Source of the DNA: Rhodocyclaceae bacterium
Lineage (GTDB): Bacteria; Pseudomonadota; Gammaproteobacteria; Burkholderiales; Rhodocyclaceae
DNA: 64,000 bases
NCBI GenBank assembly: GCA_018262775.1
Contig: JADFDU010000033.1
Coordinates: 32,001-96,000 of the forward strand
Direction of reading: 5' to 3'
The notes under the pieces were generated by a model. The model saw only the letters and a list, made by a program, of their open reading frames with translations, had not been told where the DNA came from and did not search any database. The position numbers and the translations under genes were made by a program. Positions 4,826-63,035 of this stretch are shown one piece after another. Position 1 is the first letter of the stretch, and every line of letters starts with the position of its first letter.

Positions 4826-5784
4826 GCGCGGCGCATCGCATCGTGTTCCTCGAACGCGATTCCATCCGCGGCGAATTTCGGCGGCCGAATTTCCCGCACG
4901 ACTACGACGAATATGCGCTGACCCGAGCGGAAGAACTGGCGCAGCGGGTCAAGGACGCCAGCATCGTCATCACCAACAAGGTGCAGCTGCGCGGCGAGCT
5001 GCTCGCCGCTCTGCCGAAGCTGAAGATGATCGCCTGCGCCGCCACCGGCACCGACAACGTCGACCTCGCCTGGTGCAAGGATCACGGCATCGCTGTCTCG
5101 AACATCCGTGGCTACGCGGTGAATACCGTGCCGGAGCATGCCATTGCCCTGGCCATGGCTCTCCGCCGCAACCTGCTGGCCTACCGGCGCGACGTACACG
5201 CCGGCAAATGGCAGCAGGCGCCAATGTTCTGCTTCTTCGACCATCCCATCGGCGACCTCAACGGTGCGACGCTGGGCATCTTCGGTCGCGGTTCGCTGGG
5301 TGAGGGTGTGGCGCGTCTGGGCGAGGCTTTCGGCATGCGCGTGCTGTGGGGCGAGCATAAGGGCGTAGCTGCAGCAAAAGTCAGGCCCGGCAGGACGGCG
5401 TTCGACGTGGTGTTGCACGAAGCCGACGTGATTTCCCTGCACTGCCCGCTCAACGAGCAGACGCGCGGCATGATCGGCGCGGCGGAGTTGAGGCTGATGA
5501 AGCCGGACGCCGTGCTCATCAACACTGCACGCGGCGGACTGGTCGACGAGGCGGCACTGGCGCAAGCGCTGAAGGAAGGCTGGATCGGCGGTGCCGGCTT
5601 CGACGTGCTGACGCAAGAGCCACCACGCGAAGGCAATCCGCTACTGGAGATCGACCAGCTCAACTTCATCCTCACGCCGCACATCGCCTGGGCCTCGGCA
5701 CAGGCGATGCAGGCATTGCTCGACCAGCTGACGGGCAACCTTGAGGCCTTCGCCCGCGGCGAGCAGAAAAACCGGGTGGCCTGA
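4822..5784 (+). CDS. D-2-hydroxyacid dehydrogenase (glycerate dehydrogenase-like)
   Basis: NAD(P)-dependent oxidoreductase of the D-isomer-specific family, 320 residues. The Rossmann motif GIFGRGSLGEGVA lies near residue 152, the substrate-binding region NTARGGLVDE near 233, and the catalytic His in PHIAWAS near 286. It is closest in style to HprA hydroxypyruvate/glyoxylate reductases. It is inserted between lutB and lutC, with 4-bp and 1-bp overlaps, so it is co-translated with the lactate complex and probably handles a related 2-hydroxyacid or 2-oxoacid. Residues about 185-193 (KVRPGRTA) are encoded by a copy of the dispersed 25-bp repeat. That copy falls in a variable loop ahead of the conserved DVISLHCPL block. 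Confidence 0.9.
   Translation: MSAAHRIVFLERDSIRGEFRRPNFPHDYDEYALTRAEELAQRVKDASIVITNKVQLRGELLAALPKLKMIACAATGTDNVDLAWCKDHGIAVSNIRGYAVNTVPEHAIALAMALRRNLLAYRRDVHAGKWQQAPMFCFFDHPIGDLNGATLGIFGRGSLGEGVARLGEAFGMRVLWGEHKGVAAAKVRPGRTAFDVVLHEADVISLHCPLNEQTRGMIGAAELRLMKPDAVLINTARGGLVDEAALAQALKEGWIGGAGFDVLTQEPPREGNPLLEIDQLNFILTPHIAWASAQAMQALLDQLTGNLEAFARGEQKNRVA
5376..5400 (+). repeat. 25-bp dispersed repeat A, copy 1
   Basis: AAAAGTCAG, 10-bp core GCCCGGCAGG, then ACGGCG. It lies inside the hydroxyacid dehydrogenase gene and is read in frame as KVRPGRTA. Confidence 0.85.
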
Positions 5785-6440
5785 TGCAGGATTCGCGCGA
5801 AGACATCCTCAGCCGCATTCGCCGCCGGCTTGGCCGCACGGCGGAAAACGCCACCACGGGCCGTGCCGAGATCGAGGCCTGCCTAGGCCGCCGCGAGCAG
5901 GGGCCGCGGCCCGCGGCCGAGGCGGATCGCGTCGCGCGCTTCTGCGCCCGTTCCGAGGCCCTCTCAAGCACCGTCGAGGAAGTGGCGCGACGCGAAGACG
6001 CACCGGCGGCGGTGGCGCGCTATATCGCTGCGCACGATCTTCCCCGTGCCGCGGTGGCCTGGCGGCAACTGGTCGGCCTCGACTGGAGCGGCGCCGGCCT
6101 GCAGGTGGCGGGACGCGCCGCCAACGGCGACGACCTGATCGGCATCACCGGGGTCTTCTGCGCGGTGGCCGAGACCGGCACGCTGCTGGTACTGTCCGGC
6201 CCCGACACGCCGGCCACGGCGAGTCTGCTGCCGGAAACGCACATTGCCCTGGTGCCGGCCTCGCGCATCGTGCCGGGCATGGAGGAAGCCTTCACCCTGA
6301 TTCGCGCAGAATGCGGTGCGCTGCCGCGCGCGGTGAACTTCATTTCCGGACCGTCGCGCACCGGCGACATCGAGCAGACCCTGGTGCTCGGCGCGCACGG
6401 ACCCTATCGGGTGCACATCGTCCTGCTCAGGGATTGTTGA
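5784..6440 (+). CDS. lutC: Lactate utilisation protein LutC
   Basis: Third subunit of the LutABC complex, 218 residues, LUD/YkgG domain. It has the N-terminal helix SREDILSRIRRRLG, the core ITGVFCAVAETGTLLVLSG (about 130-150) and the terminal motif PSRTGDIEQTLVLGAHGP (about 190-207), typical of the family. The ATG overlaps the stop of the dehydrogenase by one base. The 3' end overlaps the convergent kinase gene by 14 bp. This completes the lut operon as lutA-lutB-dehydrogenase-lutC. Confidence 0.95.
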   Translation: MQDSREDILSRIRRRLGRTAENATTGRAEIEACLGRREQGPRPAAEADRVARFCARSEALSSTVEEVARREDAPAAVARYIAAHDLPRAAVAWRQLVGLDWSGAGLQVAGRAANGDDLIGITGVFCAVAETGTLLVLSGPDTPATASLLPETHIALVPASRIVPGMEEAFTLIRAECGALPRAVNFISGPSRTGDIEQTLVLGAHGPYRVHIVLLRDC

Positions 6441-8421
6441 CGGAGAAACGCCGCTCGGGGCTGTCCGCGCTGACCCAGTGTTTGTGCCACCAGGCTTCGA
6501 TCTGGGCGCGCGTCCAAGGCATGTGTACCAGCAGGCCGTCAAGGGCGCTAGCCACTTCGGCGATGTTCTGCGGCCGCGCGGACGGGTCTTTTTCCAGGCA
6601 GCGCCCGATCAATGCGTCCAGTTCCGCCGGCACGGCGAAGGGCGAACATTCCGAAGCGAGTCGCGGCACCGTATGCAGCACCTGGTACGTGAGGTCATGT
6701 TCGGTTTCCGTCTCGAACAGGCGTTTGCCGGTGAGCAGATAGAAGCCGACCGCCCCCAGTGCATAAATGTCGGCGCGGCCATCCGCGTCGGAAGGATTGC
6801 GGATGCGCTCGGGCGACATGTACAGCGGCGTGCCGAGGATGCGCATCATGGCGGTGAGGTCACGCGTCTGCTCGCCCGAGATCTGCTTGACCAGGCCGAA
6901 ATCCAGCACCTTCACCACGTCGCGCTCGCCGCGTATGTCGCACAGCATGATGTTCTGCGGCTTGATGTCGCGATGCACCAGGCCGCAGGAATGCGCCTCC
7001 CACAGCGAGGCGCAGGCCTGGCGCAGGATGTGCGCCGTGCGTGCCGGCGGCACCGGTCCGTAGCGTTCCACCAGGTCGGTGAGCGACAGACCCTCCAGGT
7101 ATTCCATGGCGTACCAGAACTCGCCGTTCGCACCCGTACCGTAGTCGTAGATGGTGATGGTGTTGGGATGGGAGAGCTGGCTGGCGAGCTGCACTTCGCG
7201 CTGGAAGCGTGCTGTCCACTCGTCCGTGGTCGATTGCATCTTGAGCACCTTCAACGCCGCCGGGCGCTTCAGATGGCGGTGTTGCGCCAGGTAAATATTG
7301 CTGATGGCGCCCTCGCCGATCTGCCGCAGCAGCCGGTAGGGGCCAAGCTGGCGCGAGCGCCCGCCGCCCGGGAGCAGGGATGCCAGCACCTGCGGTGGCA
7401 GGAATCCGGAGAACCATACTGCGGTCATGAGGACAATGACGGCGGCGAAACCGATCTGCAGATAGGTGAGCGGCGCATAGGCTTCGCCGGCTTCCATTTC
7501 GACCGCCACGCCCAGGTCGTGATCCGGCAGCCATTTCCAGGCACCGATGACATCGTGTCCCAGATAGTTCGGATAAGGGGTGAGGAGCAGGCCTTCTTTC
7601 CGTTCGCGTTCTGACGCGCGCGCGGCGATGGCCTGCGCGGCGAGGCGGGTGGGGGTGTCCATGTCGGGCAGAACCAGCCGCGGTGCCAGCTGGCGCTGCG
7701 CCAGCGCCTCGGCGTGGCGGCTCTCCGATAATAGCCAGCCCTCGGCGTCGAAGGCCAGCGATTCCCCCGTGTGGCCGGGGCGGGCGACGCGGAAGAGGCC
7801 GGCAAAGCGTTTTTCCGCCGGCGAGCCCAGGGCGACCATCGCGACCACCTTGCCTGACTGCGAACGCACAGGCGCAATGACCCAGCCGCGCCCGGCCCGG
7901 TCCGGGCTGCTACCGTCACCCTCCCGGTGGGGCCTGAGGAACACCGATTTTCCGGCCAGGACGGGAGAGAGATGCGCCTGCAGTTCCGGTGCGGCCTGCT
8001 GGCCGATGTGCGCCACATCGGTCGAGGCGAGAACGCGGCCGTGGGTGTCGATGACATGCAGCGCGGCGATATCGATGTTTCCCGCCGCCTGCAGAATCGT
8101 CGCGATGATGCGCTCGCCTTCCTCGGTATCTTTTCCGGCCCCATTTTTGGCCTCTTGCTCAACCCCCTTGCGGCGATGGGTGAGCCTGATAATGGCTTCG
8201 CCCAGATCCGGATCGGCGGCGATCTGCTCCACTTCGCGGCGCCGCTCAATGATCCACCGATCGAGCGCCTCGGTCTGCGTGTTGAGCAGGGTCTTGAGGC
8301 CGGTGGCACGGATCTCCCGCAGCGATTCGCCGACGCCGCGATAGGCCCATAGGCCGACGCCGAGCACGGCGGCGAGCAGCAGGAGCAGGGCGAGGCGTGC
8401 CCGCTCAGGAGAAGTCTTCAT
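6427..8421 (-). CDS. Membrane sensor serine/threonine protein kinase
   Basis: 664-residue kinase with an extracytoplasmic sensor. TM1 spans about residues 9-27, followed by a roughly 280-residue periplasmic Cache-like domain (VIDTHGRVLASTDVAHIGQQ resembles the PAS/Cache core). TM2 lies near 325-345 and a Hanks-type kinase domain begins near 357. The kinase shows a glycine loop IGEGAISNIYLA, the catalytic loop HRDIKPQNIML (about 480), DFGLV (about 506) and GTPLYMSPERI, so it should be active. It is convergent with the lut operon. No cognate phosphatase or FHA protein is adjacent. The extracellular domain is where bacterial chemoreceptors bind small ligands; the ligand is unknown. Confidence 0.92.
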   Translation of the reverse strand: MKTSPERARLALLLLLAAVLGVGLWAYRGVGESLREIRATGLKTLLNTQTEALDRWIIERRREVEQIAADPDLGEAIIRLTHRRKGVEQEAKNGAGKDTEEGERIIATILQAAGNIDIAALHVIDTHGRVLASTDVAHIGQQAAPELQAHLSPVLAGKSVFLRPHREGDGSSPDRAGRGWVIAPVRSQSGKVVAMVALGSPAEKRFAGLFRVARPGHTGESLAFDAEGWLLSESRHAEALAQRQLAPRLVLPDMDTPTRLAAQAIAARASERERKEGLLLTPYPNYLGHDVIGAWKWLPDHDLGVAVEMEAGEAYAPLTYLQIGFAAVIVLMTAVWFSGFLPPQVLASLLPGGGRSRQLGPYRLLRQIGEGAISNIYLAQHRHLKRPAALKVLKMQSTTDEWTARFQREVQLASQLSHPNTITIYDYGTGANGEFWYAMEYLEGLSLTDLVERYGPVPPARTAHILRQACASLWEAHSCGLVHRDIKPQNIMLCDIRGERDVVKVLDFGLVKQISGEQTRDLTAMMRILGTPLYMSPERIRNPSDADGRADIYALGAVGFYLLTGKRLFETETEHDLTYQVLHTVPRLASECSPFAVPAELDALIGRCLEKDPSARPQNIAEVASALDGLLVHMPWTRAQIEAWWHKHWVSADSPERRFSVNNP

Positions 8422-8559
8422 GAAATGCCGGAACCATGGAAACGATGGCGGCCACTAGTGTAGACCAGGTGTGCAGACCCGGTGTGTAGATCAGGTCGCG
8501 TCCGCACGATCGTCCGCAACGAGCAATGCGCGGAATATGCCGGTGCTACGGGGCATGCA

Positions 8560-8590
8560 TTGACACCTATTACATTTGTTGGAATATAAT
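8560..8590 (+). promoter_or_regulatory. Consensus sigma-70 promoter for the candidate sRNA
   Basis: A perfect -35 TTGACA (8560-8565) and perfect -10 TATAAT (8585-8590) are separated by 19 bp, slightly longer than the ideal 17. Transcription should begin near 8595-8598. No gene on the + strand follows closely; the next is at 9325, beyond an antisense gene. Confidence 0.7.
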
Positions 8591-8593
8591 GCC

Positions 8594-8696
8594 CCATCGA
8601 CAGACCATTCAGTGCTGTCGATGGCTCCCGGCTCTGCTTTGAGGAGGGTGGAGATGAGAGAGAGATTCCGGCCTCGCGCAGCGAGGCCTTTTTTTT
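8594..8696 (+). ncRNA. Candidate small RNA, about 100 nt
   Basis: A free-standing transcription unit lies between two genes on the opposite strand. A consensus promoter is followed by a perfect 10-bp hairpin CCATCGACAG/CTGTCGATGG (8594-8603 with 8615-8624, 11-nt loop). Then comes a roughly 45-nt purine-rich single-stranded stretch containing GAGGAGGGTGGAGATGAGAG, and a textbook terminator (8-bp stem, 3-nt loop, 8 T). No open frame with a plausible start is seen. The GGA-rich linker could bind a CsrA/RsmA-type protein or pair with pyrimidine-rich targets (inference). The T-run touches the stop codon of the convergent marR gene. I do not recognise a known RNA family. Confidence 0.65.
8670..8696 (+). 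terminator. Intrinsic terminator of the candidate sRNA
   Basis: Stem GGCCTCGC (8670-8677) pairs with GCGAGGCC (8681-8688) around loop GCA and is followed by eight T. The T-run is only on the + strand side, so it serves the sRNA and not the facing marR gene. Confidence 0.9.
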
Positions 8697-10059: not shown

Positions 10060-10085
10060 ACCGGCCGCATTGAACGGAGTGCCCG

Positions 10086-16295: not shown

Positions 16296-16320
16296 GAAAG
16301 TCAGTCGCCGCAATACGGCG
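16296..16320 (+). repeat. 25-bp dispersed repeat A, copy 2
   Basis: GAAAGTCAG, core TCGCCGCAAT, then ACGGCG; the core forms CGCCG...CGGCG. Intergenic, between the amidotransferase stop and the next membrane protein gene. Confidence 0.85.
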
Positions 16321-19721: not shown

Positions 19722-19746
19722 GAAAGTCAGCCGCTGCAAGACGGCG
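19722..19746 (+). repeat. 25-bp dispersed repeat A, copy 3
   Basis: GAAAGTCAG, core CCGCTGCAAG, then ACGGCG (stem GCCG/CGGC). It lies in the convergent gap between marC and cvrA and ends 3 bp before the cvrA stop. Confidence 0.85.
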
Positions 19747-21495: not shown

Positions 21496-22389
21496 CTAGC
21501 TTTCCATCGCCACGAGCATGTCGCAGCGGGTCTCCGACAGCACGTGCTGGGTGACACTGCCGAGCAGCAGTTTCTCGATTTCCGACTGGCCGTGTTTGCC
21601 CATGACGATCAGGTCGGGCTGCACTGTCTCGGTCAGGTCGCGGATGGCGGCGGCCGGGTGGCCGTGCAGGATGTGGCGCTGAAAGTCAGTCCCGGCAGGA
21701 CGGCGGTGCTTGAGGAAGGCGCCCATCGCGTCCTGCGCCTGATGCCGTGCGAGGGTGCGATAGTCTTCAACGGCCTTGTCCTCGACGCTGGCGTAGCGCA
21801 GGGTGCTCTCGTAGGGAGCCTCGTACACATGGGCGACGTCGATTTCTGCGTCGGCGGCGATGGCCATCCCCCAATCCAGTGCACGGCTCGATGAAGGCGA
21901 AAAATCCACCGGCACCAGCAGGCGCTTGTAGGGCGAGAGCGGTTCCTGCTTGACGATGAGCATCGTCCGCGTGCTGCTGCGCAGCACCTTCTCCGCTGTC
22001 GCCCCGAGAAACAGTTCGCGTACCAGGTGCGCGCCGTAGCCGCCGACGACCACCAGGTCGGCGTTGACCTCATCGGCATGGGCGACGATCCCCAGATGCA
22101 CGCGCCCGACCCTGACCACGGACGTGACTTCGATGCGGTACTTCTCTCCGAGTCGGCGGGCGCGTGCGGCCAGTTCCGCCTGGGCAGCGTTGACCAGTAC
22201 CTGCTCGGTTTCCAGCGGCGTGCGTTCGAACAATGCCCTCAAGGGCTGCAGCGGCAGGGGTGGCAGCATATGCAGCAGCGTCAGCTTTGCCATGCCCAGC
22301 GCCTGCGCCAGCATGGCGGCGCGCGCCTCGGCCTTGCCAGCGTGCGAGGACAGGTCGGTGGCGACCAGGATGTGGGCGGGTTTTTCCAT
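21496..22389 (-). CDS. uspA: Tandem universal stress protein
   Basis: 297-residue protein of two UspA domains (about 1-148 and 150-297). The first starts HILVATDLSSHAGKAE and the second KRLLVPVDFSPSSSRALDW. The C-terminal ATP-binding loop is well kept in the second (VMGKHGQSEIEKLLLGSVTQHVL) and altered in the first (GGYGAHLVRELFLGATAEKVL). The ATG follows GAGGAGAGTCGAC. It precedes cvrA. Repeat A copy 4 is read on this gene's strand as RRPAGTDF in the second domain, within a variable loop before HILHGHPAAAI. The 247 bp upstream hold nothing recognisable. Confidence 0.92.
   Translation of the reverse strand: MEKPAHILVATDLSSHAGKAEARAAMLAQALGMAKLTLLHMLPPLPLQPLRALFERTPLETEQVLVNAAQAELAARARRLGEKYRIEVTSVVRVGRVHLGIVAHADEVNADLVVVGGYGAHLVRELFLGATAEKVLRSSTRTMLIVKQEPLSPYKRLLVPVDFSPSSSRALDWGMAIAADAEIDVAHVYEAPYESTLRYASVEDKAVEDYRTLARHQAQDAMGAFLKHRRPAGTDFQRHILHGHPAAAIRDLTETVQPDLIVMGKHGQSEIEKLLLGSVTQHVLSETRCDMLVAMES
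21681..21705 (+). repeat. 25-bp dispersed repeat A, copy 4
   Basis: GAAAGTCAG, core TCCCGGCAGG, then ACGGCG; the copy I use as type sequence. It lies inside the tandem Usp gene, antisense to it, and is translated in frame. Confidence 0.9.
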
Positions 22390-26522: not shown

Positions 26523-26547
26523 GAAAGTCAGCGCCCGCAGCACGGCG
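26523..26547 (+). repeat. 25-bp dispersed repeat A, copy 5
   Basis: GAAAGTCAG, core CGCCCGCAGC, then ACGGCG (CGCC/GGCG stem). It lies between the Ca2+-ATPase stop and the Na/Pi start; seen from the Na/Pi gene it sits about 18 bp upstream of the ATG, where a ribosome-binding site is expected. Confidence 0.85.
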
Positions 26548-26553: not shown

Positions 26554-29170
<2,617 letters not shown>

Positions 29171-37597: not shown

Positions 37598-38649
37598 AAG
37601 TGAAAGCCGCAGCGGGCGCGCCGATGAACCTGTTCGAGCGCTGGCTGACGCTGTGGGTGTTCCTCTGCATCGTCATCGGCATTGCGCTCGGCCAGTTCAT
37701 GCCGGCGCCGTTCCAGGCATTGGGGCGCATGGAAGTGGCGCGGGTCAATCTGCCTGTCGGTCTGCTCATCTGGGTGATGATCATCCCGATGCTGGTGAAG
37801 GTGGATTTCGGCGCGCTGCAGCAGGTGCGCGCGCACCTGCGCGGCATGGGTGTGACGCTGTTCGTGAACTGGCTGGTAAAACCCTTCTCGATGGCCTTCC
37901 TCGGCTGGCTGTTCATCCGCCACCTCTTTGCGCCCTGGCTGCCGGCGGAGCAGATCGATGCCTACATCGCCGGCCTCATCCTCCTCGCCGCCGCGCCGTG
38001 CACGGCGATGGTCTTCGTCTGGAGCCGCCTCTCCGATGGCGACCCGCTGTTCACGCTGTCGCAGGTGGCGGTCAACGACACCATCATGATCTTCGCCTTC
38101 GCCCCCATCGTCGGCCTGCTGCTCGGCATCTCGGCGATCAGCGTGCCGTGGGACACGCTGGTGACCTCGGTGGTGCTCTACATCGTCATGCCGCTGGCGC
38201 TGGCGCAGATCTGGCGCAAGGCCCTGCTGCGCAAAAGTCAGTCTGCGTACGACGGCGCCATGGCGAAGAGCGGGCCCTGGTCGATCGCCGCGCTGCTCGC
38301 CACGCTGGTGCTGCTGTTCGCCTTCCAGGGCAAGGCCATCCTCGCGCAGCCCCTCATCATCGCGCTGCTGGCGGTGCCGATTCTCATCCAGGTCTTCTTC
38401 AACTCGGCACTGGCCTACTGGCTCAACCGTGCCGTGGGGGAGAAGCACAACATCGCCTGCCCCTCGGCGCTGATCGGCGCCAGCAACTTCTTCGAACTGG
38501 CGGTGGCGGCGGCGATATCCCTGTTCGGCTTCGAGTCGGGCGCGGCGCTGGCGACCGTGGTCGGCGTGCTGATCGAGGTGCCGGCGATGCTCCTTGTCGT
38601 GAAGGTGGTGAATGCCAGCAAGGGCTGGTACGAGGCGGGCCATGCCTGA
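37594..38649 (+). CDS. acr3: Arsenite efflux transporter, ACR3 family
   Basis: 351-residue ten-segment membrane protein that exports As(III). The ACR3 signature AAPCTAMVFVWSRLSDGDP (about 135-153) holds the essential Cys. Start ATG 37594 follows GAGG at 6 nt and overlaps the arsC remnant; ATG 37624 is an alternative. Repeat A copy 6 is read in frame as KSQSAYDGA in a cytoplasmic loop between segments, where homologues vary. The gene overlaps the next by 8 bp. Confidence 0.93.
   Translation: MKVKAAAGAPMNLFERWLTLWVFLCIVIGIALGQFMPAPFQALGRMEVARVNLPVGLLIWVMIIPMLVKVDFGALQQVRAHLRGMGVTLFVNWLVKPFSMAFLGWLFIRHLFAPWLPAEQIDAYIAGLILLAAAPCTAMVFVWSRLSDGDPLFTLSQVAVNDTIMIFAFAPIVGLLLGISAISVPWDTLVTSVVLYIVMPLALAQIWRKALLRKSQSAYDGAMAKSGPWSIAALLATLVLLFAFQGKAILAQPLIIALLAVPILIQVFFNSALAYWLNRAVGEKHNIACPSALIGASNFFELAVAAAISLFGFESGAALATVVGVLIEVPAMLLVVKVVNASKGWYEAGHA
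38233..38257 (+). repeat. 25-bp dispersed repeat A, copy 6
   Basis: AAAAGTCAG, core TCTGCGTACG, then ACGGCG; the most divergent core, lacking CCG. Inside acr3, in frame, in a loop region. Confidence 0.8.
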
Positions 38650-42220: not shown

Positions 42221-42245
42221 TGCCGTACTGCGGAGACTGACTTTC
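42221..42245 (-). repeat. 25-bp dispersed repeat A, copy 7
   Basis: On the minus strand GAAAGTCAG, core TCTCCGCAGT, then ACGGCA (the only copy with a changed last base). It ends 2 bp before the start codon of the next gene and so replaces its ribosome-binding site. Confidence 0.85.
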
Positions 42246-45257: not shown

Positions 45258-45282
45258 CGCCGTCCCACCGGAGCTGACTTTC
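45258..45282 (-). repeat. 25-bp dispersed repeat A, copy 8
   Basis: On the minus strand GAAAGTCAG, core CTCCGGTGGG, then ACGGCG. It ends 15 bp before the start codon of the restriction-modification gene. Confidence 0.85.
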
Positions 45283-45297: not shown

Positions 45298-48180
45298 ATG
45301 ACGCCGGCACAATTCATCGCCCGCTGGAAGGGCAACCCGCTATCCGAGCGCGCCGGCGCGCAGGCCCACTTCGACGACCTGTGCGATCTGCTCGGCGTCG
45401 ACAAGCCGCGCGACCCGGATAACTACTGTTTCGAACGCGGCGCCGGCAGGGCCAGCGGCGCCGAGGGCAATCGCGGCTGGGCCGACGTCTGGAAGCGCGA
45501 CTGCTTCGGCTGGGAAAACAAGCGGCCGGGGCGCGACCTGCGCGCCGCGCTCAAACAGCTCACCGATTACGCGCTCGAACTCGACAACCCGCCGCTGCTG
45601 GTCGTCAGCGACCGCGAGCGCATCCAGATCCACACCGCCTTCACCGGTTATCCCGACGAGCCGCGCAGCATCCGCATCGAAGACATCGGCGTGCCCGAAA
45701 ACCTGCAGACCCTGCGCTGGCTGTTCACCGAGCCGGAAAAACTACGCCCGGTCAAATCGCTCGCCGCCATCACCGAGGACGCCGCCGGCCGCCTCGGCGA
45801 ACTGGCCGAGACCCTGCGTGGGCGCGGACACGAAGCCCACCTTGTTGCGCACTTCCTCATCCAGTGCCTCTTCTGCATGTTCGCCGAGGACGAAGGCCTG
45901 CTCGCGCGCGGCCTGTTCACCAGCCTCCTCGGCAAGACCGCCGACGATCCGGCGCGCGCCAGCAACCGCCTCACGGCGCTGTTCACCGCCATGCAGGGCG
46001 GCGGCGATTACGGCGACGAGGCCATCGCCTGGTTCAACGGCGGCCTGTTCCAGACGGTTGCCGTGCCGCCGCTGGAAAAGAGCGACCTCGCCGCGCTGCA
46101 CCGCGCCGCCGACATGGACTGGCGCAACATCGATCCCTCCATCTTCGGCACCCTCTTCGAGCGCGGCCTCAACCCGGCCAAGCGCTCGCAGCTCGGCGCG
46201 CACTACACCGATCCGGCGACGATCATGCGCCTCATCGAGCCGACCCTCGTGCGGCCGCTGACGCAGGCATGGCAGGCGGCGAAGGCGAAGATCGCCGCCG
46301 CGCTGAAGAAATCGAAGAAGCAGAACGACAAGGCCTGGAAGGACGCCGCGGCGATCTTCCACCACCACCTCGAACGCCTGCGCAACTTCCGCGTGCTCGA
46401 TCCCGCCTGCGGCAGCGGCAACTTTCTTTACCTCGCGCTGAAGGCGCTGAAGGACCTCGAGCGCCGCGCCAACGTCGAGGCCGAAGCCCTCGGCCTGCAG
46501 CGCCAGGTGAGCATCGAAGTCTCGCCCGCCAATGTGCTTGGCATCGAGCTCGACCCCTACGCCGCCGAACTGGCGCGCGTCACCGTGTGGATCGGCGAGA
46601 TCCAGTGGATGCTGAGGAACGGCTATCCCGTCTCGACCCGGCCCATCCTCAGGCCGCTCGACACCATCGAGAACCGCGACGCGCTGGTGAAAGTCAGTCC
46701 CGGCGAGACGGCGATGACAGAAGCGGAATGGCCGCCCTGCGACGCCATTGTCGGCAACCCGCCGTTTCTCGGCGACAAGCGGATGCGTGGCGAGCTCGGC
46801 GACGCGTACGTCACGGCGCTGCGCAAGCGCTACGCCGGCCGCGTGCCCGGCGGCGCCGATCTGGTGACCTACTGGTTCGAGAAGGCGCGGGCGCAGATCG
46901 AAGCGGAGAAATGTACGGCGGCGGGACTGGTTGCCACCAACTCGATCCGCGGCGGTGCCAACCGCAAGGTGCTGGATCGCATTGTTAAGACGACACGTAT
47001 TTTCGAGGCCTGGAGCGACGAACCGTGGATCAACGAAGGCGCGGCGGTGCGGGTGTCGTTGTTGGCGCTTGGTAAGGGCGAAGGTACAAGATTGGATGGA
47101 AAAGAAACTTCGGTCATTCACTCCGACCTGACTGCCAGTGAAAGCTCGAACCTAACGACGGCGCAAAGACTCTCCGAGAATGCGGGCGTATGTTTCGAGG
47201 GAATCAAAAAATATGGCCTGTTCGATGTCCCTGGTAGCATGGCCCGCACTTGGCTAGCGTTGGGCGGCAATCCTAACGGGCGACCAAACTCCGATGTGCT
47301 GCGCCCATGGATCAATGCAACCGATGTGGTTCGCAATGATTCGGATACATGGGTGATCGACTTTACCGGGCTCACGGAAAGCGAGGCTTCCCTTTATGAA
47401 GCTCCGTTCGAGCATGCGAGAAACAATGTGCAACCGGTACGTGCGCTGGACCGCAATGCAAAAACCCGTACTCAGTGGTGGCTCTACGAGCGCTCTCGCT
47501 CTGAAATGCGCAAGGCCATTGCAGCCCTCCCACGCTTCATCGTCTCGCCAGTAGTCGCAAAGCATCGCATTTTCGCTTGGCGCTCTGCGCCTACGCTGGC
47601 AATGAATTTGCTGGATGTTATCGCCCGCGCCGACGACACCATCTTCGGCATCCTGCATTCCCGCTTCCACGAGCTCTGGTCGTTGCGGCTTTGCACTTGG
47701 CTCGGCGTCGGTAACGATCCACGCTACACCCCGACCACCACCTTCGAGACCTTTCCCTTCCCCGCCGGCCTGACGCCGCGCGATACGGCACCGGTTACCG
47801 GCACGGGTTCGCCGCCGTGCATGGCGGAGGAGATTGCGGCGGCGAACATCGCCGCCGCCGCGCGCCACCTGAACGAGCTGCGCGAGCGCTGGCTCAATCC
47901 GCCGGAATGGACGGAGCGCATCGCCGAAGTCGTGCCCGGCTATCCCGAGCGCATCGTCGCCAAAGCGGGCTTCGAGGCGGAGTTGAAGAAACGCACGCTG
48001 ACCAACCTCTACAACGCCCGCCCGGCCTGGCTCGACAACGCGCACAAGGCGCTCGACGCAGCCGTCGCCGCCGCCTACGGCTGGACGGACTACACGCCGG
48101 ACATGAGTGAAGAGGAAATCCTCAAGCGCCTGCTGGCGCTGAATCTGCAACGCAAGGCGGCGGAGGCAAAGCGGGTGTGA
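45298..48180 (+). CDS. MmeI-type (Type IIL) restriction-modification enzyme
   Basis: 960-residue single-chain enzyme with nuclease and DNA adenine methylase. The N-terminus carries D63-x9-E73-N-K75 (WADVWKRDCFGWENK), the same D-x9-ExK spacing as the MmeI nuclease. The methylase has DPACGSGNFLYLALKAL (motif I, about 370) and VGNPPFLGDKRM (motif IV NPPF, about 485). A helical spacer and C-terminal recognition domain follow. All catalytic residues are present, so it may cut about 20 bp from its site. Repeat A copy 9 adds KVSPGETA between motifs X/I and IV. No separate S or R gene is adjacent. Confidence 0.88.
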   Translation: MTPAQFIARWKGNPLSERAGAQAHFDDLCDLLGVDKPRDPDNYCFERGAGRASGAEGNRGWADVWKRDCFGWENKRPGRDLRAALKQLTDYALELDNPPLLVVSDRERIQIHTAFTGYPDEPRSIRIEDIGVPENLQTLRWLFTEPEKLRPVKSLAAITEDAAGRLGELAETLRGRGHEAHLVAHFLIQCLFCMFAEDEGLLARGLFTSLLGKTADDPARASNRLTALFTAMQGGGDYGDEAIAWFNGGLFQTVAVPPLEKSDLAALHRAADMDWRNIDPSIFGTLFERGLNPAKRSQLGAHYTDPATIMRLIEPTLVRPLTQAWQAAKAKIAAALKKSKKQNDKAWKDAAAIFHHHLERLRNFRVLDPACGSGNFLYLALKALKDLERRANVEAEALGLQRQVSIEVSPANVLGIELDPYAAELARVTVWIGEIQWMLRNGYPVSTRPILRPLDTIENRDALVKVSPGETAMTEAEWPPCDAIVGNPPFLGDKRMRGELGDAYVTALRKRYAGRVPGGADLVTYWFEKARAQIEAEKCTAAGLVATNSIRGGANRKVLDRIVKTTRIFEAWSDEPWINEGAAVRVSLLALGKGEGTRLDGKETSVIHSDLTASESSNLTTAQRLSENAGVCFEGIKKYGLFDVPGSMARTWLALGGNPNGRPNSDVLRPWINATDVVRNDSDTWVIDFTGLTESEASLYEAPFEHARNNVQPVRALDRNAKTRTQWWLYERSRSEMRKAIAALPRFIVSPVVAKHRIFAWRSAPTLAMNLLDVIARADDTIFGILHSRFHELWSLRLCTWLGVGNDPRYTPTTTFETFPFPAGLTPRDTAPVTGTGSPPCMAEEIAAANIAAAARHLNELRERWLNPPEWTERIAEVVPGYPERIVAKAGFEAELKKRTLTNLYNARPAWLDNAHKALDAAVAAAYGWTDYTPDMSEEEILKRLLALNLQRKAAEAKRV
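46689..46713 (+). repeat. 25-bp dispersed repeat A, copy 9
   Basis: GAAAGTCAG, core TCCCGGCGAG, then ACGGCG. In frame within the restriction-modification gene (KVSPGETA), about 40 bp before the NPPF codons. Confidence 0.85.
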
Positions 48181-48232
48181 CTGGATTCCCGCTTTTGCCC
48201 GAAGGAAATCCCTGTGGGACGCGGGAATGACG
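48181..48232. repeat. dRS3/REP-like inverted repeat interrupted by repeat C
   Basis: Arms ATTCCCGC (48185-48192) and GCGGGAAT (48221-48228) match the other REP-like copies in this window, where they are separated by only 4 nt. Here 28 nt intervene, and most of them are a copy of the 23-bp repeat C. Confidence 0.7.
48198..48221 (+). repeat. 23-bp dispersed repeat C, copy 1 (nested)
   Basis: CCCGAAGGAAATCC then CTGTGGGACG; it sits in the loop of a REP-like repeat. Two other copies are at 53297 and 54881. Confidence 0.7.
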
Positions 48233-48237
48233 CGCCT

Positions 48238-48546
48238 TCATGCGACTTTGTGCGTCTTCACGTATTCCTGGAGTGCGTCATCGACGCGCGTCTGCCAGCC
48301 CGGGCCCTCGGCCTTGAAAAATTCCACCACTTCCGGCGACAGGCGGATCGCCGTGGCCACCTTGCGTGGTGTCTTCTGCAGACCGCGCACGCGCCGCACC
48401 TTCGCCTTTTTCCAGTAGGCCTCGACTGCTTTCGGGTCGTTCGGGTCGTAGGGATCGACCGCCGGATCGTAGGGTACCGGCGCCTCGGCCGCCGCCTCGC
48501 GCTGCACGCGCTTCCAGTCAGTCTTGCTCTTTACAGGCTGCTTCAT
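48238..48546 (-). CDS. brnA: BrnA-type antitoxin
   Basis: 102-residue antitoxin. The N-terminal part KQPVKSKTDWKRVQREAAAE is the BrnT-binding region and the C-terminal RKVATAIRLSPEVVEFFKAEGPGWQTRVDDALQEYV is the BrnA ribbon-helix-helix DNA-binding domain. The start lies within the end of brnT (29-bp overlap), the standard toxin-first order. It should neutralise BrnT and repress the operon. Confidence 0.92.
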   Translation of the reverse strand: MKQPVKSKTDWKRVQREAAAEAPVPYDPAVDPYDPNDPKAVEAYWKKAKVRRVRGLQKTPRKVATAIRLSPEVVEFFKAEGPGWQTRVDDALQEYVKTHKVA

Positions 48547-48891: not shown

Positions 48892-48916
48892 CGCCGTCCT
48901 GCGGAAACTGACTTTT
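48892..48916 (-). repeat. 25-bp dispersed repeat A, copy 10
   Basis: On the minus strand AAAAGTCAG, core TTTCCGCAGG, then ACGGCG. It lies just past the stop codon of the ribbon-helix-helix gene, beside a degenerate REP-like sequence (48864-48885). Confidence 0.85.
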
Positions 48917-50513: not shown

Positions 50514-50531
50514 CTTATGTAACAACTATCC

Positions 50532-50615
50532 CGTCATTCCGGGGCCGCGCAGCGGAACCCGGAATCCATGCGGCCAATGGCTAACATCTGGATTCCCGCT
50601 TCCGCGGGAATGACG
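50532..50615. repeat. Pair of dRS3/REP-like inverted repeats
   Basis: GTCATTCCGGGG...AACCCGGAATCCA (from 50532) followed by CTGGATTCCCGC-TTCC-GCGGGAATGACG (50588-50615). The same two-part layout recurs at 55111-55194 and 63036-63106. Confidence 0.7.
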
Positions 50616-50670
50616 AAGCGGGCGCAGCGTGTGACATGCGAGATCTGAATATTTGAAAGGGAGAACGAAA

Positions 50671-50979: not shown

Positions 50980-51189
50980 ATGGTCCGCCTGCTCATGCGC
51001 TTTCTCGTCGCCATCTCGGTCATCGCCGTGCTGGCGGGGCTGACTTTTGTCTACGTCAAGCCGCCGCCGAGCATGAAGCTGACGCGCGACGGCGTGCCGC
51101 ACCTGTCGCCGCCGGTGGCGCACCCGGTGACGGGCGAGGCGATCCCGCTGGAGCGGCTGGTGCAGCATTACAAGGGAGGCGGACGCTGA
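50980..51189 (+). CDS. Small single-pass membrane protein in the sulfur operon
   Basis: 69 residues with one transmembrane segment (about 5-27) and a Pro-rich periplasmic or cytoplasmic tail (YVKPPPSMKLTRDGVPHLSPPV). Start is 3 bp after the tusA-like stop. Repeat A copy 11 encodes IAVLAGLTF inside the membrane segment. The stop overlaps the next tiny frame as TGATG. No family recognised. Confidence 0.7.
   Translation: MVRLLMRFLVAISVIAVLAGLTFVYVKPPPSMKLTRDGVPHLSPPVAHPVTGEAIPLERLVQHYKGGGR
51024..51048 (-). repeat. 25-bp dispersed repeat A, copy 11
   Basis: On the minus strand AAAAGTCAG, core CCCCGCCAGC, then ACGGCG. It lies inside the small membrane protein gene and, read on the gene's strand, encodes part of its transmembrane helix. 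Confidence 0.8.
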
Positions 51190-51631: not shown

Positions 51632-52609
51632 ATGCTGCGTCTTTTCCTCCTTGCCGCGTTGTGCGCCGCCTGCCCGGCCGGCGCGGCGGAGGATTTTACC
51701 TACGTGCGCACGGCTGCGGCGGCGTCCGGCATGGTGGTGGTGGATAGTCGTCCGCTCGCCGACTGCCGTGCGCAAAGCCTCGCCGATGCGCGCTGCCTGC
51801 CTGCGGAAGATTTCCTCGGTCCGCAGCGGCGTCTGCCGAGCGCGCGCGACCTGCTCTGGCTGCTCGGCACCGCCGGCCTCTCGGGCGAGGAGGGCGTGAT
51901 CGTCGTCGGCCAAGATGCCGTGGCGCGCGATTTCGTCGCCGGCCTGCTGTGGCTTGCCGGACAACGCAGCGTGCACGTGCTGACGGAACCCGTCGGCCGC
52001 CTGCTTGAATCCGGCGCGGCCGCCGGCCCGGGACGCGAACACGGCATGATCCGCGAGACGGTTTTTACGGCGCCGATGCGCGATGGCCTGCTGCTGTTGC
52101 GTGATGAGTTACGCGATGAACTACGGACCCTGCGTCCACAGCCGCCGCTGCTGGACGGGCGCAGCGACAAGGAATACTGGGGCGAGGGTGGAGAACTGGA
52201 TGCGCGCGCGGCGCGCAGCGGCCATCTGCCCGGCGCCATCAGCCTGCCCGCGCTGCAATTGCGCGCGACGCTCGGCGTGGAAACGGAAAACAAGCCCGTG
52301 CTGCCCGATGGCCCAGCGGTCGCCTACGCCCACGATGCCTACGAAGGGCTGGCCTATCTCACGCTGCTCATGGCCGGCTACGGCGTGCCGGCGCGGCTGT
52401 ATGCGGAAGGCTGGGCCGAGTGGGCGGCCGACGGCAGCCTGCCGGCCGATGCCGTCGGCTATCCAGAGCGCGCGCAGGTCGCCGAAAGCAAAAGTCAGCC
52501 GCCGCAGGACGGCGCTACGCGGGCGGAAGCCATCATCGCGGCCGCCGTTGTCCTCGCGCTGGCCGCTTTCCTCTTCGGCTGGTGGTCGGCAAGAAGGAGA
52601 TTGGCCTGA
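51632..52609 (+). CDS. Tandem rhodanese-like membrane protein lacking the catalytic Cys
   Basis: 325 residues: signal peptide (1-19, ending AGA), two rhodanese-fold domains (about 22-145 and 150-285) and a C-terminal anchor (about 298-316). GVIVVGQDAVARDFVAGL and AVAYAHDAYEGLAYLTLL occupy the positions of the active loops, but neither has the CxxGxR Cys. It may bind rather than transfer sulfur. Repeat A copy 12 encodes KSQPPQDGA in the linker before the anchor. Its stop overlaps the next ATG. Confidence 0.78.
   Translation: MLRLFLLAALCAACPAGAAEDFTYVRTAAAASGMVVVDSRPLADCRAQSLADARCLPAEDFLGPQRRLPSARDLLWLLGTAGLSGEEGVIVVGQDAVARDFVAGLLWLAGQRSVHVLTEPVGRLLESGAAAGPGREHGMIRETVFTAPMRDGLLLLRDELRDELRTLRPQPPLLDGRSDKEYWGEGGELDARAARSGHLPGAISLPALQLRATLGVETENKPVLPDGPAVAYAHDAYEGLAYLTLLMAGYGVPARLYAEGWAEWAADGSLPADAVGYPERAQVAESKSQPPQDGATRAEAIIAAAVVLALAAFLFGWWSARRRLA
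52490..52514 (+). repeat. 25-bp dispersed repeat A, copy 12
   Basis: AAAAGTCAG, core CCGCCGCAGG, then ACGGCG (GCCG/CGGC). Inside the rhodanese-like gene, in a linker, in frame. Confidence 0.85.
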
Positions 52610-52905
52610 TGGACATCCTCTTCCATGTCGCCACCGAGGCAGGCGCGCAGGTGCTGCTGCCGCTGGCGCTGGCCTGCCGCCGCGGCGGCCATGCCTTCGG
52701 TGCCTTCTTCACGCATGAGGGCGCGCGCGGCCTGCTCGATGCCGGCTTGCAGGCGGCCTTGCGCGACAGCCGCGCCGCCCGCGTAGTCGTGTGCGAAGAA
52801 TCCTGGCATCGCTTCTGCGGCGACGCAGCCTGCCCGGTCGAACTCGGCAGCCAGACCACGAACAGCGCCCTCATGGGCGAGGCGAAGAAAGTGGTGAGCC
52901 TGTGA
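52609..52905 (+). CDS. DsrE-like small cysteine protein
   Basis: 98 residues with an alternating helix/strand pattern (MDILFHVATEAGAQVLLPLA, GHAFGAFFTHEGARGLL) and four Cys, of which CEESWHRFCGDAACP groups three. It resembles DsrE/F-fold sulfur-relay proteins, but the similarity is weak. It starts on the stop of the rhodanese gene. Predicted cytoplasmic; could receive sulfane sulfur. Confidence 0.6.
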   Translation: MDILFHVATEAGAQVLLPLALACRRGGHAFGAFFTHEGARGLLDAGLQAALRDSRAARVVVCEESWHRFCGDAACPVELGSQTTNSALMGEAKKVVSL

Positions 52906-53014
52906 GCGCCCCGCACGGCTGTCCGAAGGGGCGCCAGACACAACCCGGAGCCGCGCAGCGGCGAACCTCCGTCACCCCCTCCCGTGGGGAGGGGGGCGGG
53001 GGGAGGGTACTTCC

Positions 53015-55824: not shown

Positions 55825-55825
55825 T

Positions 55826-57026: not shown

Positions 57027-57610
57027 TTGATCGACCAATGAGCAAGCGATCCTGGAACATCCTCATTTTGTGTACCGGCAATTCGGCGAGGAGCATCCTC
57101 GCCGAGGCGCTTTTCAATGCCCTCGGCGGTGGCCGTGTGCGTGCGTATTCCGCCGGCAGCCGGCCGGCCGGAGCAGTGAATCCCTACGCGCTGGAACTGC
57201 TTGAGGCGCAGGGTCTGGACACCGCCGGCCTGCGCAGCAAGAGCTGGGATGAATTCGCCGCTGCGGACGCGCCGCCGCTCGACCTGGTGGTGACGGTGTG
57301 CGGCAATGCGGCACATGAAGCCTGCCCGCTGTGGCCGGGCGCGTATTTGCGCGCACACTGGGGCGTGGACGACCCGGCCGCCGCTGAGGTGGCAAATGCG
57401 GGCAGCGAGGCGATCATCCGCGCCGCCTTCAATAAAGCCTACACACTGCTGACCGAACGCATCCTCACCTTTCTCAGCCTGTCCTTCGAGGACATGGAGC
57501 GCAGCGAATTGCAAAGCCATCTCGACGAGATCGGCCGCACCGGCGGCGTTGGCGCTGTTGGCAGTGGCGCCGCCGTCACCGGGGGACTGACTTTTTCCTA
57601 TGACGACTGA
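57023..57610 (+). CDS. arsC: Arsenate reductase, thioredoxin-coupled ArsC type
   Basis: 195 residues of the low-molecular-weight phosphatase fold. The P-loop LCTGNSARS (about 16-24) has the nucleophilic Cys, and CGNAAHEACP (about 92-101) has the pair that completes the Cys relay of ArsC, so it should reduce arsenate. ATG 57023 overlaps the regulator stop; ATG 57038 is possible. The C-terminal tail AAVTGGLTFS comes from repeat A copy 13. It is 20 kb from acr3, next to which only an arsC remnant is left. Confidence 0.88.
   Translation: MIDRPMSKRSWNILILCTGNSARSILAEALFNALGGGRVRAYSAGSRPAGAVNPYALELLEAQGLDTAGLRSKSWDEFAAADAPPLDLVVTVCGNAAHEACPLWPGAYLRAHWGVDDPAAAEVANAGSEAIIRAAFNKAYTLLTERILTFLSLSFEDMERSELQSHLDEIGRTGGVGAVGSGAAVTGGLTFSYDD
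57571..57595 (-). repeat. 25-bp dispersed repeat A, copy 13
   Basis: On the minus strand AAAAGTCAG, core TCCCCCGGTG, then ACGGCG. It encodes the end of ArsC and lies 5 bp before the ATG of the MFS gene. Confidence 0.85.
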
Positions 57611-58916: not shown

Positions 58917-58925
58917 ATTTATAAT
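58897..58925 (+). promoter_or_regulatory. Possible promoter of the sqr gene
   Basis: -10 TATAAT (58920-58925) with a 17-bp spacer and a partial -35 AGGACA (58897-58902). It would give a leader of about 100 nt before the sqr ATG, which has AGAGGAGATCAGG as ribosome-binding site. Confidence 0.4.
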
Positions 58926-59031
58926 CTGGCCTAATATGAGTATTGCAAGCGTGATTCGGCAGGAAGGCGACGGGGCCGGATAATCTGCCGGGCTGAAACG
59001 ATTCGATAACAATTCTAGAGAGGAGATCAGG

Positions 59032-60303: not shown

Positions 60304-60335
60304 AGTACGCAACATAAACGCGCAACAAAACGAAA

Positions 60336-60366
60336 AAGGCCGCCCTGGAGAGGGCGGCCTTTTTTA
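60336..60366. terminator. Bidirectional intrinsic terminator between sqr and gdhA
   Basis: Perfect 11-bp stem AAGGCCGCCCT / AGGGCGGCCTT with loop GGAG, with T-rich sequence after it on the + strand (TTTTTTATTTT) and A-run before it. It serves both convergent genes. Confidence 0.9.
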
Positions 60367-60381
60367 TTTTCCGACAGGCTG

Positions 60382-61725
60382 TTAGTAGATGCCCTGCTGC
60401 ATCATGGCATCCGCAACCTTGACGAAGCCGGCGATGTTGGCGCCGTCCACGTAGTTGATGAAACCGTCCTTGCCTTGGCCGTACTCCACGCAGTTGCTGT
60501 GGATCTCGTGCATGATCGACTTCAGGCGGTCGTCCACTTCATTCCGCACCCACGGCAGGCGCTGGGCGTTCTGCGTCATCTCCAGGCCCGAGGTGGATAC
60601 GCCGCCGGCATTGCTGGCCTTGCCCGGTGCGTAGAGGATGCCGGCCTCGATGAAGGCTTCGACGGCTTCGAATGTGGAGGGCATGTTGGCGCCTTCGGCC
60701 ACGCATTTCACCCCGTTCTTCACCAGCACCCTGGCGTCTTCGCCGTTCAATTCATTCTGCGTGGCGCAGGGCAGGGCGATGTCGACCGGAATGTGCCACG
60801 GCGTCTTGCCGGGCTGGTATTCCAGGCCGAATTTCTTGGCGTAGTCCTCGACGCGGCCGTAGTCGTCGTTGCGGATGCGCATCAGCGCATCGAGCTTCTC
60901 GCGGCTGAAGCCGGCCTTGTCGTAGACCGTGCCGTTCGAGTCGGATATCGTGACCACTTTTGCGCCGAGTTCCAACAACTTCTCCACCGAATACTGGGCG
61001 ACGTTGCCCGAGCCGGAAATCGAGACGGTCATGCCCGCGATGTCGAGACTCCGGGCCTTCAGCATGTTGTCGACGAAGTACACCAGGCCATAGCCGGTGG
61101 CTTCCGGACGGACCAGGCTGCCGCCGAAGGACAGGCCCTTGCCGGTGAACACGCAGGCGGCGTTGTTGGTGAGTTTCTTCATCATGCCGGCCATGAAGCC
61201 GACTTCGCGGGCGCCGACGCCGATGTCGCCGGCCGGCACGTCGGTGTCCGGGCCGAGGTGGCGGTGGAGCTCGACCATCAGTGCCTGGCAGAAGCGCATC
61301 ACTTCATTGCGGCTCTTGCCCTTCGGGTCGAAGTCCGAGCCGCCCTTGGCGCCGCCCATCGGCAGCGTCGTCAGCGCGTTCTTGAAGGTTTGTTCAAAGG
61401 CAAGAAATTTGAGGATCGACAGATTCACCGAAGGGTGGAAACGCATGCCACCCTTGAACGGGCCGATGGCGGAGCTGTGCTGTACGCGGAAGCCGCGGTT
61501 GGTTTGCGCTACACCGTGGTCGTCCACCCAGGAGACGCGGAACTGGATCGCGCGCTCCGGCTCGACCAGGCGCTCGAGCAGCGCAGCGTCGGCGTAGCGA
61601 GGGTGGTGCTGGATGAAGTTCCACACGCTGTCCATGACTTCTCTCACGGCCTGCAGGAATTCCGGTTGGTCCTTGTCGCGCGCTTTGACGTAAGCCATGA
61701 AGTCGTCAAGGTTCTTGTATTTCAT
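60382..61725 (-). CDS. gdhA: NADP-specific glutamate dehydrogenase
   Basis: 447-residue hexameric GDH. KGGMRFHPSVNLSILKFLAFEQ, then PMGGAKGGSDFDPKG (catalytic Lys in the second) and GNVAQYSVEKLLELGAKVV (NAD(P) fold) are visible. It makes glutamate from 2-oxoglutarate and ammonia; glutamate is also a K+-balancing osmolyte. The ATG at 61725 follows GGAGAGCGCTTT. The 275-bp upstream gap holds a small GCACC/GGTGC hairpin and a promoter for the opposite gene. Confidence 0.96.
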   Translation of the reverse strand: MKYKNLDDFMAYVKARDKDQPEFLQAVREVMDSVWNFIQHHPRYADAALLERLVEPERAIQFRVSWVDDHGVAQTNRGFRVQHSSAIGPFKGGMRFHPSVNLSILKFLAFEQTFKNALTTLPMGGAKGGSDFDPKGKSRNEVMRFCQALMVELHRHLGPDTDVPAGDIGVGAREVGFMAGMMKKLTNNAACVFTGKGLSFGGSLVRPEATGYGLVYFVDNMLKARSLDIAGMTVSISGSGNVAQYSVEKLLELGAKVVTISDSNGTVYDKAGFSREKLDALMRIRNDDYGRVEDYAKKFGLEYQPGKTPWHIPVDIALPCATQNELNGEDARVLVKNGVKCVAEGANMPSTFEAVEAFIEAGILYAPGKASNAGGVSTSGLEMTQNAQRLPWVRNEVDDRLKSIMHEIHSNCVEYGQGKDGFINYVDGANIAGFVKVADAMMQQGIY

Positions 61726-61965
61726 AAAGCGCTCTCCAAATCGAACGAACAAATAAACGGCCCAGGCGAACCAAGGTGGACTGGCCCGTGTGGAATTCTT
61801 TGGCGATAATGAGCTAATCCTGACGGCCCAGAACCGCTACTGCTAATGGCGTGGGGGCGAATTTTACAGCTTTTATGCACCTTTTATGGTGCGGGCGGCT
61901 TATTCTTGAAGATGCGCGGTTTATGGCAACGACCCCTCCGGGAAGAGGCTGGCCATATAGGCAGA

Positions 61966-61994
61966 TTGACAAGAATATAAGAAAACTCTAATAT
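61966..61994 (+). promoter_or_regulatory. Strong promoter of the RND adaptor gene
   Basis: Perfect -35 TTGACA (61966-61971), spacer 17 bp, -10 TAATAT (61989-61994). The ATG begins 7 nt after the -10, where transcription should start, so the message may be leaderless. Confidence 0.7.
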
Positions 61995-62000
61995 ACATCC

Positions 62001-63035
62001 ATGCCACAAAATTACATTCTTCTTCTGCTTGCCGCCGTCCTGCCGGGGCTAGTGCCAGCCTTTGTTTCTGTGGTACTGACTTTGGCAGGTCAGGCCTTGG
62101 CGCAAGCTGCGTCGCCGGCCACCGCCACCATTGAGCTGCGCGAGATCGCGCTGACCTATCCGGCCGAGGCTGTCGTCGAGGCGGTGCAGCAGGCCACTTT
62201 GGCTGCCCAGGTACCAGGCCGCGTGGTCGAAGTGCGCGCCGACGCCGGCGACGCAGTAAAGCGCGGCCAGCTCCTCATGCGCATCGATGCGCGCGAGGCG
62301 ACCGAGGGCTATGTCGCCAGCCAGGCGACGCTCATCAATGCCAAGGCCCACTACGAGCGCACGAAAGATCTCTACGAGCAGAAATTCATCAGCAAGGCCG
62401 CGCTCGACAAGGCCGAGTCCGACTACCGCGCGGCGCGCGCCAACAGCGGCGCTGCTGCCGCCTCGGCCAGCCACGCCAGCATCGTCTCGCCGCTGAGCGG
62501 CTTCGTCGCCCAGCGCCACGTCGAGGCGGGCGAGATGGCCACGCCGGGCAGCCCGCTCATCACCGTGTACGACCCGAAGGGCCTGCGGGTCACTTCGAGC
62601 ATTCCGCAGTACAAGCTGGCCGAGGTGCGCGCCCAGCTGCGCGCCAAGGTCGAGTTTCCCGGTAGCGGCCAGTGGGTCGACGCCGTCAAGGTCGAGGTGT
62701 TCCCGTCCGCCGATCCGCGCACCCACACCGTGCTGGCGCGTGCGTATCTGCCGGACAACCTGGCCGGAGTCATTCCCGGCATGTTTGCACGCACTCACTT
62801 CGTCACCGGCACGGCGAAGAAACTGCTGCTGCCCGCCGCCGCCGTGTTGCGCCGGGGCGAGGTGACGGCGGTGTATGTCATCGACGACAAGAACGCGGCG
62901 CACCTGCGCCAGGTGCGGCTCTCCGAGCCGCTGGCAGGGGGCTTCCATGAAGTGCTGGCGGGGCTGACCGCCGGCGAGAAAGTTGCACTCGATCCGGTCA
63001 AGGCGGGGATAACCGCCCGGCCGGCGAATAATTAG
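62001..63035 (+). CDS. RND efflux periplasmic adaptor (MFP)
   Basis: 344-residue membrane fusion protein. A signal peptide (about 1-33) is followed by barrel-sandwich hybrid LAAQVPGRVVEVRADAGDAVKRGQLLMRID, a helical hairpin (YVASQATLINAKAHYERTKDL) and a beta-barrel. It links an inner membrane RND pump with an outer membrane factor; the pump gene follows. The signal peptide coding region holds a repeat A copy split by 27 bp that adds nine hydrophobic residues. Substrate unknown. Confidence 0.92.
   Translation: MPQNYILLLLAAVLPGLVPAFVSVVLTLAGQALAQAASPATATIELREIALTYPAEAVVEAVQQATLAAQVPGRVVEVRADAGDAVKRGQLLMRIDAREATEGYVASQATLINAKAHYERTKDLYEQKFISKAALDKAESDYRAARANSGAAAASASHASIVSPLSGFVAQRHVEAGEMATPGSPLITVYDPKGLRVTSSIPQYKLAEVRAQLRAKVEFPGSGQWVDAVKVEVFPSADPRTHTVLARAYLPDNLAGVIPGMFARTHFVTGTAKKLLLPAAAVLRRGEVTAVYVIDDKNAAHLRQVRLSEPLAGGFHEVLAGLTAGEKVALDPVKAGITARPANN
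62033..62084 (-). repeat. 25-bp dispersed repeat A, copy 14, interrupted by 27 bp
   Basis: On the + strand CGCCGTCCTGCCGGGG (62033-62048) and CTGACTTTG (62076-62084) would join into one full 25-bp copy if the 27 bp between (62049-62075) were removed. The insert is a multiple of three and keeps the signal-peptide frame. Confidence 0.55.

Follow-up and report, generated by a model that had tools for sequence, protein, structure and literature searches.

Why should one bipartite word recur again and again, on both strands and both within and between genes, along a single stretch of bacterial DNA? The stretch in question (the window) comprises 64,000 nucleotides of a Rhodocyclaceae bacterium (assembly GCA_018262775.1, contig JADFDU010000033.1, positions 32,001 to 96,000 of the forward strand), and the word is RAAAGTCAG-N10-ACGGCG, found there in 14 intact copies, eight on the plus and six on the minus strand, and in one split copy. 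A first-pass annotation, made from the letters alone, had likened its behavior to that of repetitive extragenic palindromes and their associated tyrosine transposases (REP/RAYT) or of Rickettsia palindromic elements (RPEs). We instead interpret it, with a probability of roughly 0.6, as an uptake-signal sequence that marks the genus's own DNA and is kept by biased uptake and recombination.

That the element is real and dispersed is borne out by a search of the whole genome to which the window belongs (G000; 3.09 Mb in 57 contigs), which returns 404 copies of the core, 205 on one strand and 199 on the other or one per about 7.5 kb, as against none for the reversed control word. Within the window, the 23-base core AAAGTCAG-N10-ACGGC is matched 14 times and not once in 100 dinucleotide shuffles. 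A blind scan of all 5-mer pairs with gaps of 0-25 ranks the motif first in both G000 and G002, another genome of the genus, and the same scan of the element-poor genome G008 does not have it among the top pairs. The two boxes are mostly held 10 bases apart: of 76 box pairs with spacers of 0-30 in 464 kb of G000, 72 have a spacer of 10, three of 5 and one of 23. Over the 14 fixed positions, 69 copies in the same 464 kb are perfect, 15 deviate at one position and 10 at two; three control words occur there in 0-2 copies with one mismatch. Across 1.66 Mb drawn from G000, G001 and G002, AAAGTCAG occurs 307 times versus 19 expected, and 231 of these occurrences are accompanied by the second box; box 1 seems to be more stable than box 2. 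The spacer, previously described as a variable 10-base core, does vary (179 distinct versions among the 231 copies), yet it is not free, for it has a consensus of its own that completes the 25-base word as RAAAGTCAG-TCNCNGCRRB-ACGGCG. The strongest covariation within it joins positions one or two apart, plus one longer link. The flanks are nearly free of consensus, with little besides the R directly before the first box, and a hairpin can be rejected because neither box is an inverted repeat of the other.

The core is present in all 15 other genomes of the genus, which we infer to be Candidatus (Ca.) Desulfobacillus of the Rhodocyclaceae. Twelve of these have 151-454 copies (G001 to G008: 392, 448, 151, 384, 237, 170, 454 and 4; G009 to G015: 329, 442, 358, 21, 45, 173 and 206), the numbers being affected by the incompleteness of several assemblies. 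Outside the genus, 44 genomes of the family or order have 0-1 copies each (12 with one), and 368 other genomes of the class have 0-2 (19 with one or two). In a named genome collection, the near-exact consensus, with one two-fold position, matches 71 stretches, 66 of which are labelled Rhodocyclales, Sulfuritalea, Betaproteobacteria or Ca. Desulfobacillus denitrificans (AP021857.1) and five otherwise. The consensus had not been recognized in the first-pass annotation, and it is likewise not found in the literature that we searched: a query with the letters of AAAGTCAG and ACGGCG gave nothing relevant among the matches listed, and queries for a DNA uptake sequence in Rhodocyclaceae or, more narrowly worded, in Betaproteobacteria returned none.

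How these copies came about bears directly on the idea of a mobile short repeat spreading by insertion, be it akin to REP/RAYT, RPEs or miniature inverted-repeat transposable elements (MITEs), which the short length of the element and its many dispersed copies in both orientations bring to mind. Elements of G000, G002, G001 and G012 were compared with stretches of one another and of G008. Of the 45 directed alignments with an element-lacking partner, not all independent, gaps are absent from 23 and present in 22, and none shows a deletion of at least 15 bases in that partner; hence the orthologues lacking the element offer no clean insertion. Some of the gapped alignments even show the reverse: it is the partner that has additional bases, as in the case of the window's split copy. 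Near-matches, one to a few substitutions from the motif, occur at orthologous positions, in G008 as well, and both G008 and outgroup genera align across element sites with other bases in their place. One site at the comEC locus illustrates this gradation: it is intact in G001, G002, G004, G009 and G010, 1-3 bases off in G000, G011, G014 and G015, and occupied by other bases in G008 (mostly ungapped) and in G016, G017 and G040 (with small gaps). A second aligned site of this locus is intact in six genomes. At orthologous sites the spacers differ with the boxes unchanged, which, like the diversity of spacers overall, argues against the copying of a mobile unit, as does a common flank no longer than about one base. 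The Y1 transposase of the RAYT family (PF01797), expected beside a REP-like element, has no match in eight of the 16 genus genomes, including the high-copy G000 (404), G001 (392), G007 (454) and G011 (358), and the eight genomes with a match include the element-poor G008 and G013. Together with the location of about two thirds of the sites within called genes and the lack of an inverted repeat between the boxes, this makes a mobile repeat scarcely credible, and we reject the REP, RAYT, RPE and MITE assignments on the lack of clean empty sites, the lack of a RAYT match in several high-copy genomes and the varied spacers. The element sites formed instead by substitution in place and were then maintained.

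Maintenance is evident in sets of sites that were not chosen by the motif. Sites of G002 are intact in G001 in 23 of 28 cases, and those of G001 in G002 in 23 of 25; the figures are 7/10 for G000 to G002, 7/11 for G002 to G000, 8/11 for G000 to G001 and 8/9 for G001 to G000. Toward the low-copy genomes they are 1/7 (G000 to G012), 0/8 (G002 to G012), 0/8 (G002 to G008) and 0/2 (G000 to G008). A separate tally of 119 present and nine variant sites is biased, most of its loci having been fetched by the motif. Between G002 and G001 (26 of the 28 pairs, imperfect ungapped partners included), the boxes diverge by 1.6% (6/364), the spacers by 16%, the 30 bases directly adjoining the word on either side by 14.4% and the farther flanks by 11.5%. 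Over five directed comparisons, the boxes diverge by 1.2-5.4%, the near flanks by 13.5-23.2% and the far flanks by 11.4-16.1%, with the near flank more divergent than the far one every time (p 0.0002-0.02). Since only perfect query sites enter, the box rates count one lineage and the flank rates both, so that the two are not symmetric; the contrast between box and flank is still 2- to 6-fold after the flank rate is halved. It is the DNA that is conserved and not the protein, as had been proposed from the window, since the element is read in five of the six frames; in the sixth, TGA would fall in frame, and a protein motif can thus be rejected. The available text of a study of the neisserial DNA uptake sequence (DUS) describes a similar pattern, with motifs more conserved than average and neighbors more divergent (PMC2397512).

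The placement of the element is tolerant of position. Of the 231 copies in the 1.66 Mb, 151 fall within called genes, 66 are intergenic and 14 lie at gene edges; as the coding density is 91%, according to a home-made gene caller that missed some genes (the universal stress protein gene of the window included), the element is under-represented in coding DNA. The proposal that it occupies permissive positions is upheld. In seven genomes with 170-448 copies each, the rpoB loci (47.8 kb), rpoB being the sole constrained locus examined, have no element versus 6.6 expected, and the comEC loci of nine genomes have 16 sites versus 5.8 expected, these being orthologous and so not independent. Low-GC segments have 10 elements versus 24 expected (p 0.001), and a 30-kb polysaccharide cluster is an element-free low-GC stretch. 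The spacing is slightly even, with a coefficient of variation of 0.84 versus 0.99 for random placement (p 0.007) and 19 gaps below 1 kb versus 29 (p 0.012). Over-representation and tolerance within coding sequence would also suit a recombination or segregation signal of the Chi or KOPS (FtsK-orienting polar sequence) type. We reject this for want of polarity, three 400-kb stretches placed without mapped replichores having 25 plus/30 minus, 25/28 and 28/23 copies; Chi and KOPS words are, moreover, far shorter than 25 bases, and such a signal is very improbable. A genus-specific word found both within and between genes could also recall HIP1 of the cyanobacteria, an abundant, clade-specific 8-base palindrome that occurs within genes, and be linked to a methyltransferase or defense system. 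The present word is asymmetric, and its 25-base length, two-box layout and exact 10-base spacing argue otherwise; a restriction target should be avoided rather than enriched. We consider a HIP1-like origin improbable.

A more serious alternative is that the element is the binding site of a chromosome-organizing or genome-maintenance protein (nucleoid-associated, a condensin loader or similar), needed every several kb and held by ordinary selection. Such a site would account for most of the facts equally well, including the genome-wide and slightly even spacing, the strong conservation of the boxes and the absence of strand preference, and a two-domain DNA-binding protein would fit a 25-base bipartite target. 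We know of no chromosome organizer with about 400 such long, exact sites on both strands. The more divergent flanks fit the behavior of DUS as described in the available portion of PMC2397512. Selection at each of 400 sites is also a heavy requirement, and we prefer the uptake signal over a nucleoid-organizing site, which we hold to be rather unlikely, because molecular drive needs no separate benefit at every one of them.

Under the uptake-signal interpretation, a DNA receptor on the cell surface, belonging to the type IV pilus competence machinery, would bind both boxes, the candidates being minor pilins of the FimT and PilE types. DNA bearing the word would be taken up and recombined preferentially, and therefore chance near-matches would be converted to the word by this bias and then persist, so that maintenance would amount to molecular drive, whether or not selection for self-DNA contributes. 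Genes for fimT- and pilE-type minor pilins, recognized by eye, are present in the loci inspected. ComEC scores above the family cut-off in 14 of the 16 genus genomes (partial in G005 and weak in G012, both incomplete) and DprA in 13, the exceptions being G005 (partial), G015 (none) and G001, where part of the dprA stretch reads N and no loss is therefore inferred. The ComP_DUS family (PF16732) matches 50 of 60 genomes and so does not discriminate.

To our knowledge, such self-DNA codes, DUS and uptake signal sequences (USS), have so far been known only from Neisseriaceae and Pasteurellaceae. The present element resembles the DUS of Neisseriaceae, whose receptor is ComP, in being clade-specific and very numerous, in lying both in and between genes at permissive core sites, going by the accessible parts of PMC2397512 and PMC3630211, and in having a word more conserved than its flanks. 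It differs in belonging to another bacterial family, in its density of one per about 7.5 kb and in being a discontinuous 25-base word rather than a contiguous 10-12-mer. A post hoc comparison of its complement, GCCGT...CTGAC, with the neisserial GCCGTCTGAA gives agreement at nine of 10 letters once the spacer is removed; the two boxes could even represent the neisserial half-sites GCCGT and CTGA with 10 bases set between them, recognized by a related pilin. With the USS of Pasteurellaceae, which are up to 32 bases long and have ComN/PpdA as candidate receptor, it shares discontinuity, an origin by point mutation without clean insertion and a relatively even spread, so far as the available text of PMC7811141 and, for all but the absence of clean insertion, PMC12616744 goes; its letters are different, without AT tracts and with a GC-rich second box. 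Substitution origin, position tolerance, word conservation, variable neighbors, an even spread and rarity within constrained genes together constitute the published signature of USS (PMC7811141) and of DUS (PMC2397512, PMC3630211). The balance of this evidence tips somewhat toward a third, independently evolved code for the recognition of self-DNA, in the Rhodocyclaceae, with two boxes one helical turn apart.

Several observations weigh against an uptake signal. None of the known words tested is enriched in these genomes, neither the neisserial 10-mer (four found versus 5.0 expected) nor the Hin and Apl cores. The element is far sparser than the USS of Haemophilus, which occurs about once per kb. 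Inverted pairs at close range, which are common among DUS, are scarce here: only two of 221 neighboring pairs lie within 300 bases of each other, one of them inverted. The element-poor G008 keeps ComEC and DprA, and other genera also have competence genes, which are therefore not discriminating. Rarity in newly acquired DNA, which such a code predicts, finds weak and mixed support: low-GC segments are depleted, but outside alignable DNA the density is only slightly lower (0.114 versus 0.145 and 0.136 per kb in samples of G002 and G001). Of two long element-free low-GC stretches inspected, one, of 28 kb, belongs to the core and holds pilB/pilC/pilD-like genes, proS and tyrS (named by eye). In a viral contig collection, a narrowed pattern finds one copy on each of two contigs with phage-like frames, as judged by eye. 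Finally, PMC2397512 argues that recombination with divergent DNA, rather than point mutation by itself, gives rise to many DUS.

If the uptake-signal reading is correct, these uncultured bacteria would be naturally transformable, now or until recently. The genus would show several stages, from near absence (G008) through sparse occupation (G012, G013) to saturation (about 330-450 copies), so that one could follow the emergence of such a code inside a single genus. It would also furnish an independent replicate of how such codes start, plus a new pilin-DNA recognition pair. Since the genus comes from anammox reactors and groundwater, to go by record titles and one abstract, rather than from animal mucosa, it would serve as a test of whether such codes depend on a host-bound life. 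In a nucleotide tree of rpoB, in which the within-genus supports are weak (31-84) and G000, G003, G007 and G015 are missing for lack of an rpoB match, the low-copy G012, G013 and G008 take positions toward the root of the genus, as does G009 (329 copies); hence gain followed by loss and gradual gain are both possible.

Within the window, all 13 copies listed in the first-pass annotation are where it had placed them, 12 of them exact; a fourteenth, on the minus strand, had been missed, which changes its count of eight and five orientations to eight and six and makes 13 of the 14 copies exact. It had put seven copies in coding sequence; we find eight within reading frames, with Pfam support for seven of the genes. 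On the plus strand, copies lie in a 2-hydroxyacid dehydrogenase gene (5376..5400, read KVRPGRTA), antisense in a universal stress protein (Usp) gene (21681..21705, RRPAGTDF), in a gene of the sodium/bile acid symporter (SBF) family (38233..38257, KSQSAYDGA), in an MmeI-like restriction-modification gene (46689..46713, KVSPGETA) and in a rhodanese-domain gene (52490..52514, KSQPPQDGA). The overlooked copy (27933..27957, minus) is inside a P-type cation ATPase gene on the same strand. Two further minus-strand copies are antisense, one in a 69-residue open frame without a Pfam match (51024..51048, IAVLAGLTF) and one at the extreme 3' end of a low-molecular-weight phosphatase gene (57571..57595, AAVTGGLTF). 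The six intergenic copies are at 16296..16320, 19722..19746 and 26523..26547 on the plus strand, the last just beyond the 3' end of the P-type ATPase gene, and at 42221..42245 (ending in ACGGCA), 45258..45282 and 48892..48916 on the minus strand. The split copy, also recognized earlier, is genuine (62033..62083, minus): the motif is broken after nine bases by 27 extra bases, and the G002 orthologue is intact without them.

The sparse genome G012 has 20 exact copies on 15 of its about 550 contigs, nine of them on four contigs, and contamination is a possible source. It also has near-matches with AAAGTCGGCGCTGGCG, or one base off, four times on contigs C40, C100 and C134, which could be another repeat or a second dialect; the 20 largest contigs of this genome have no AAAGTCGG with ACGGC. 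The near-exact consensus also turns up on contigs that bear the labels Bacteroidia, Geobacteraceae, Acidobacteria and Phycisphaerae; these contigs may be misbinned Desulfobacillus DNA, and the motif could therefore act as a marker of contamination. The two viral contigs, from IMG/VR, carry a consensus-like element within a frame at position 4935 of L280 and position 6976 of L281, and are possibly phages of this genus. Other spaced inverted repeats abound in G008, among them TTCCC-N8-GGGAA and GGGTT-N11-AACCC; we take the first of these to be reminiscent of the neisserial dRS3. The window itself has three other hairpin-rich intergenic repeats, at 52895-53005, 50520-50625 and 48175-48240, with relatives at 26, 24 and two places, respectively, in 1.66 Mb of the genus; unlike the 25-base element, these look like ordinary REP-type repeats.

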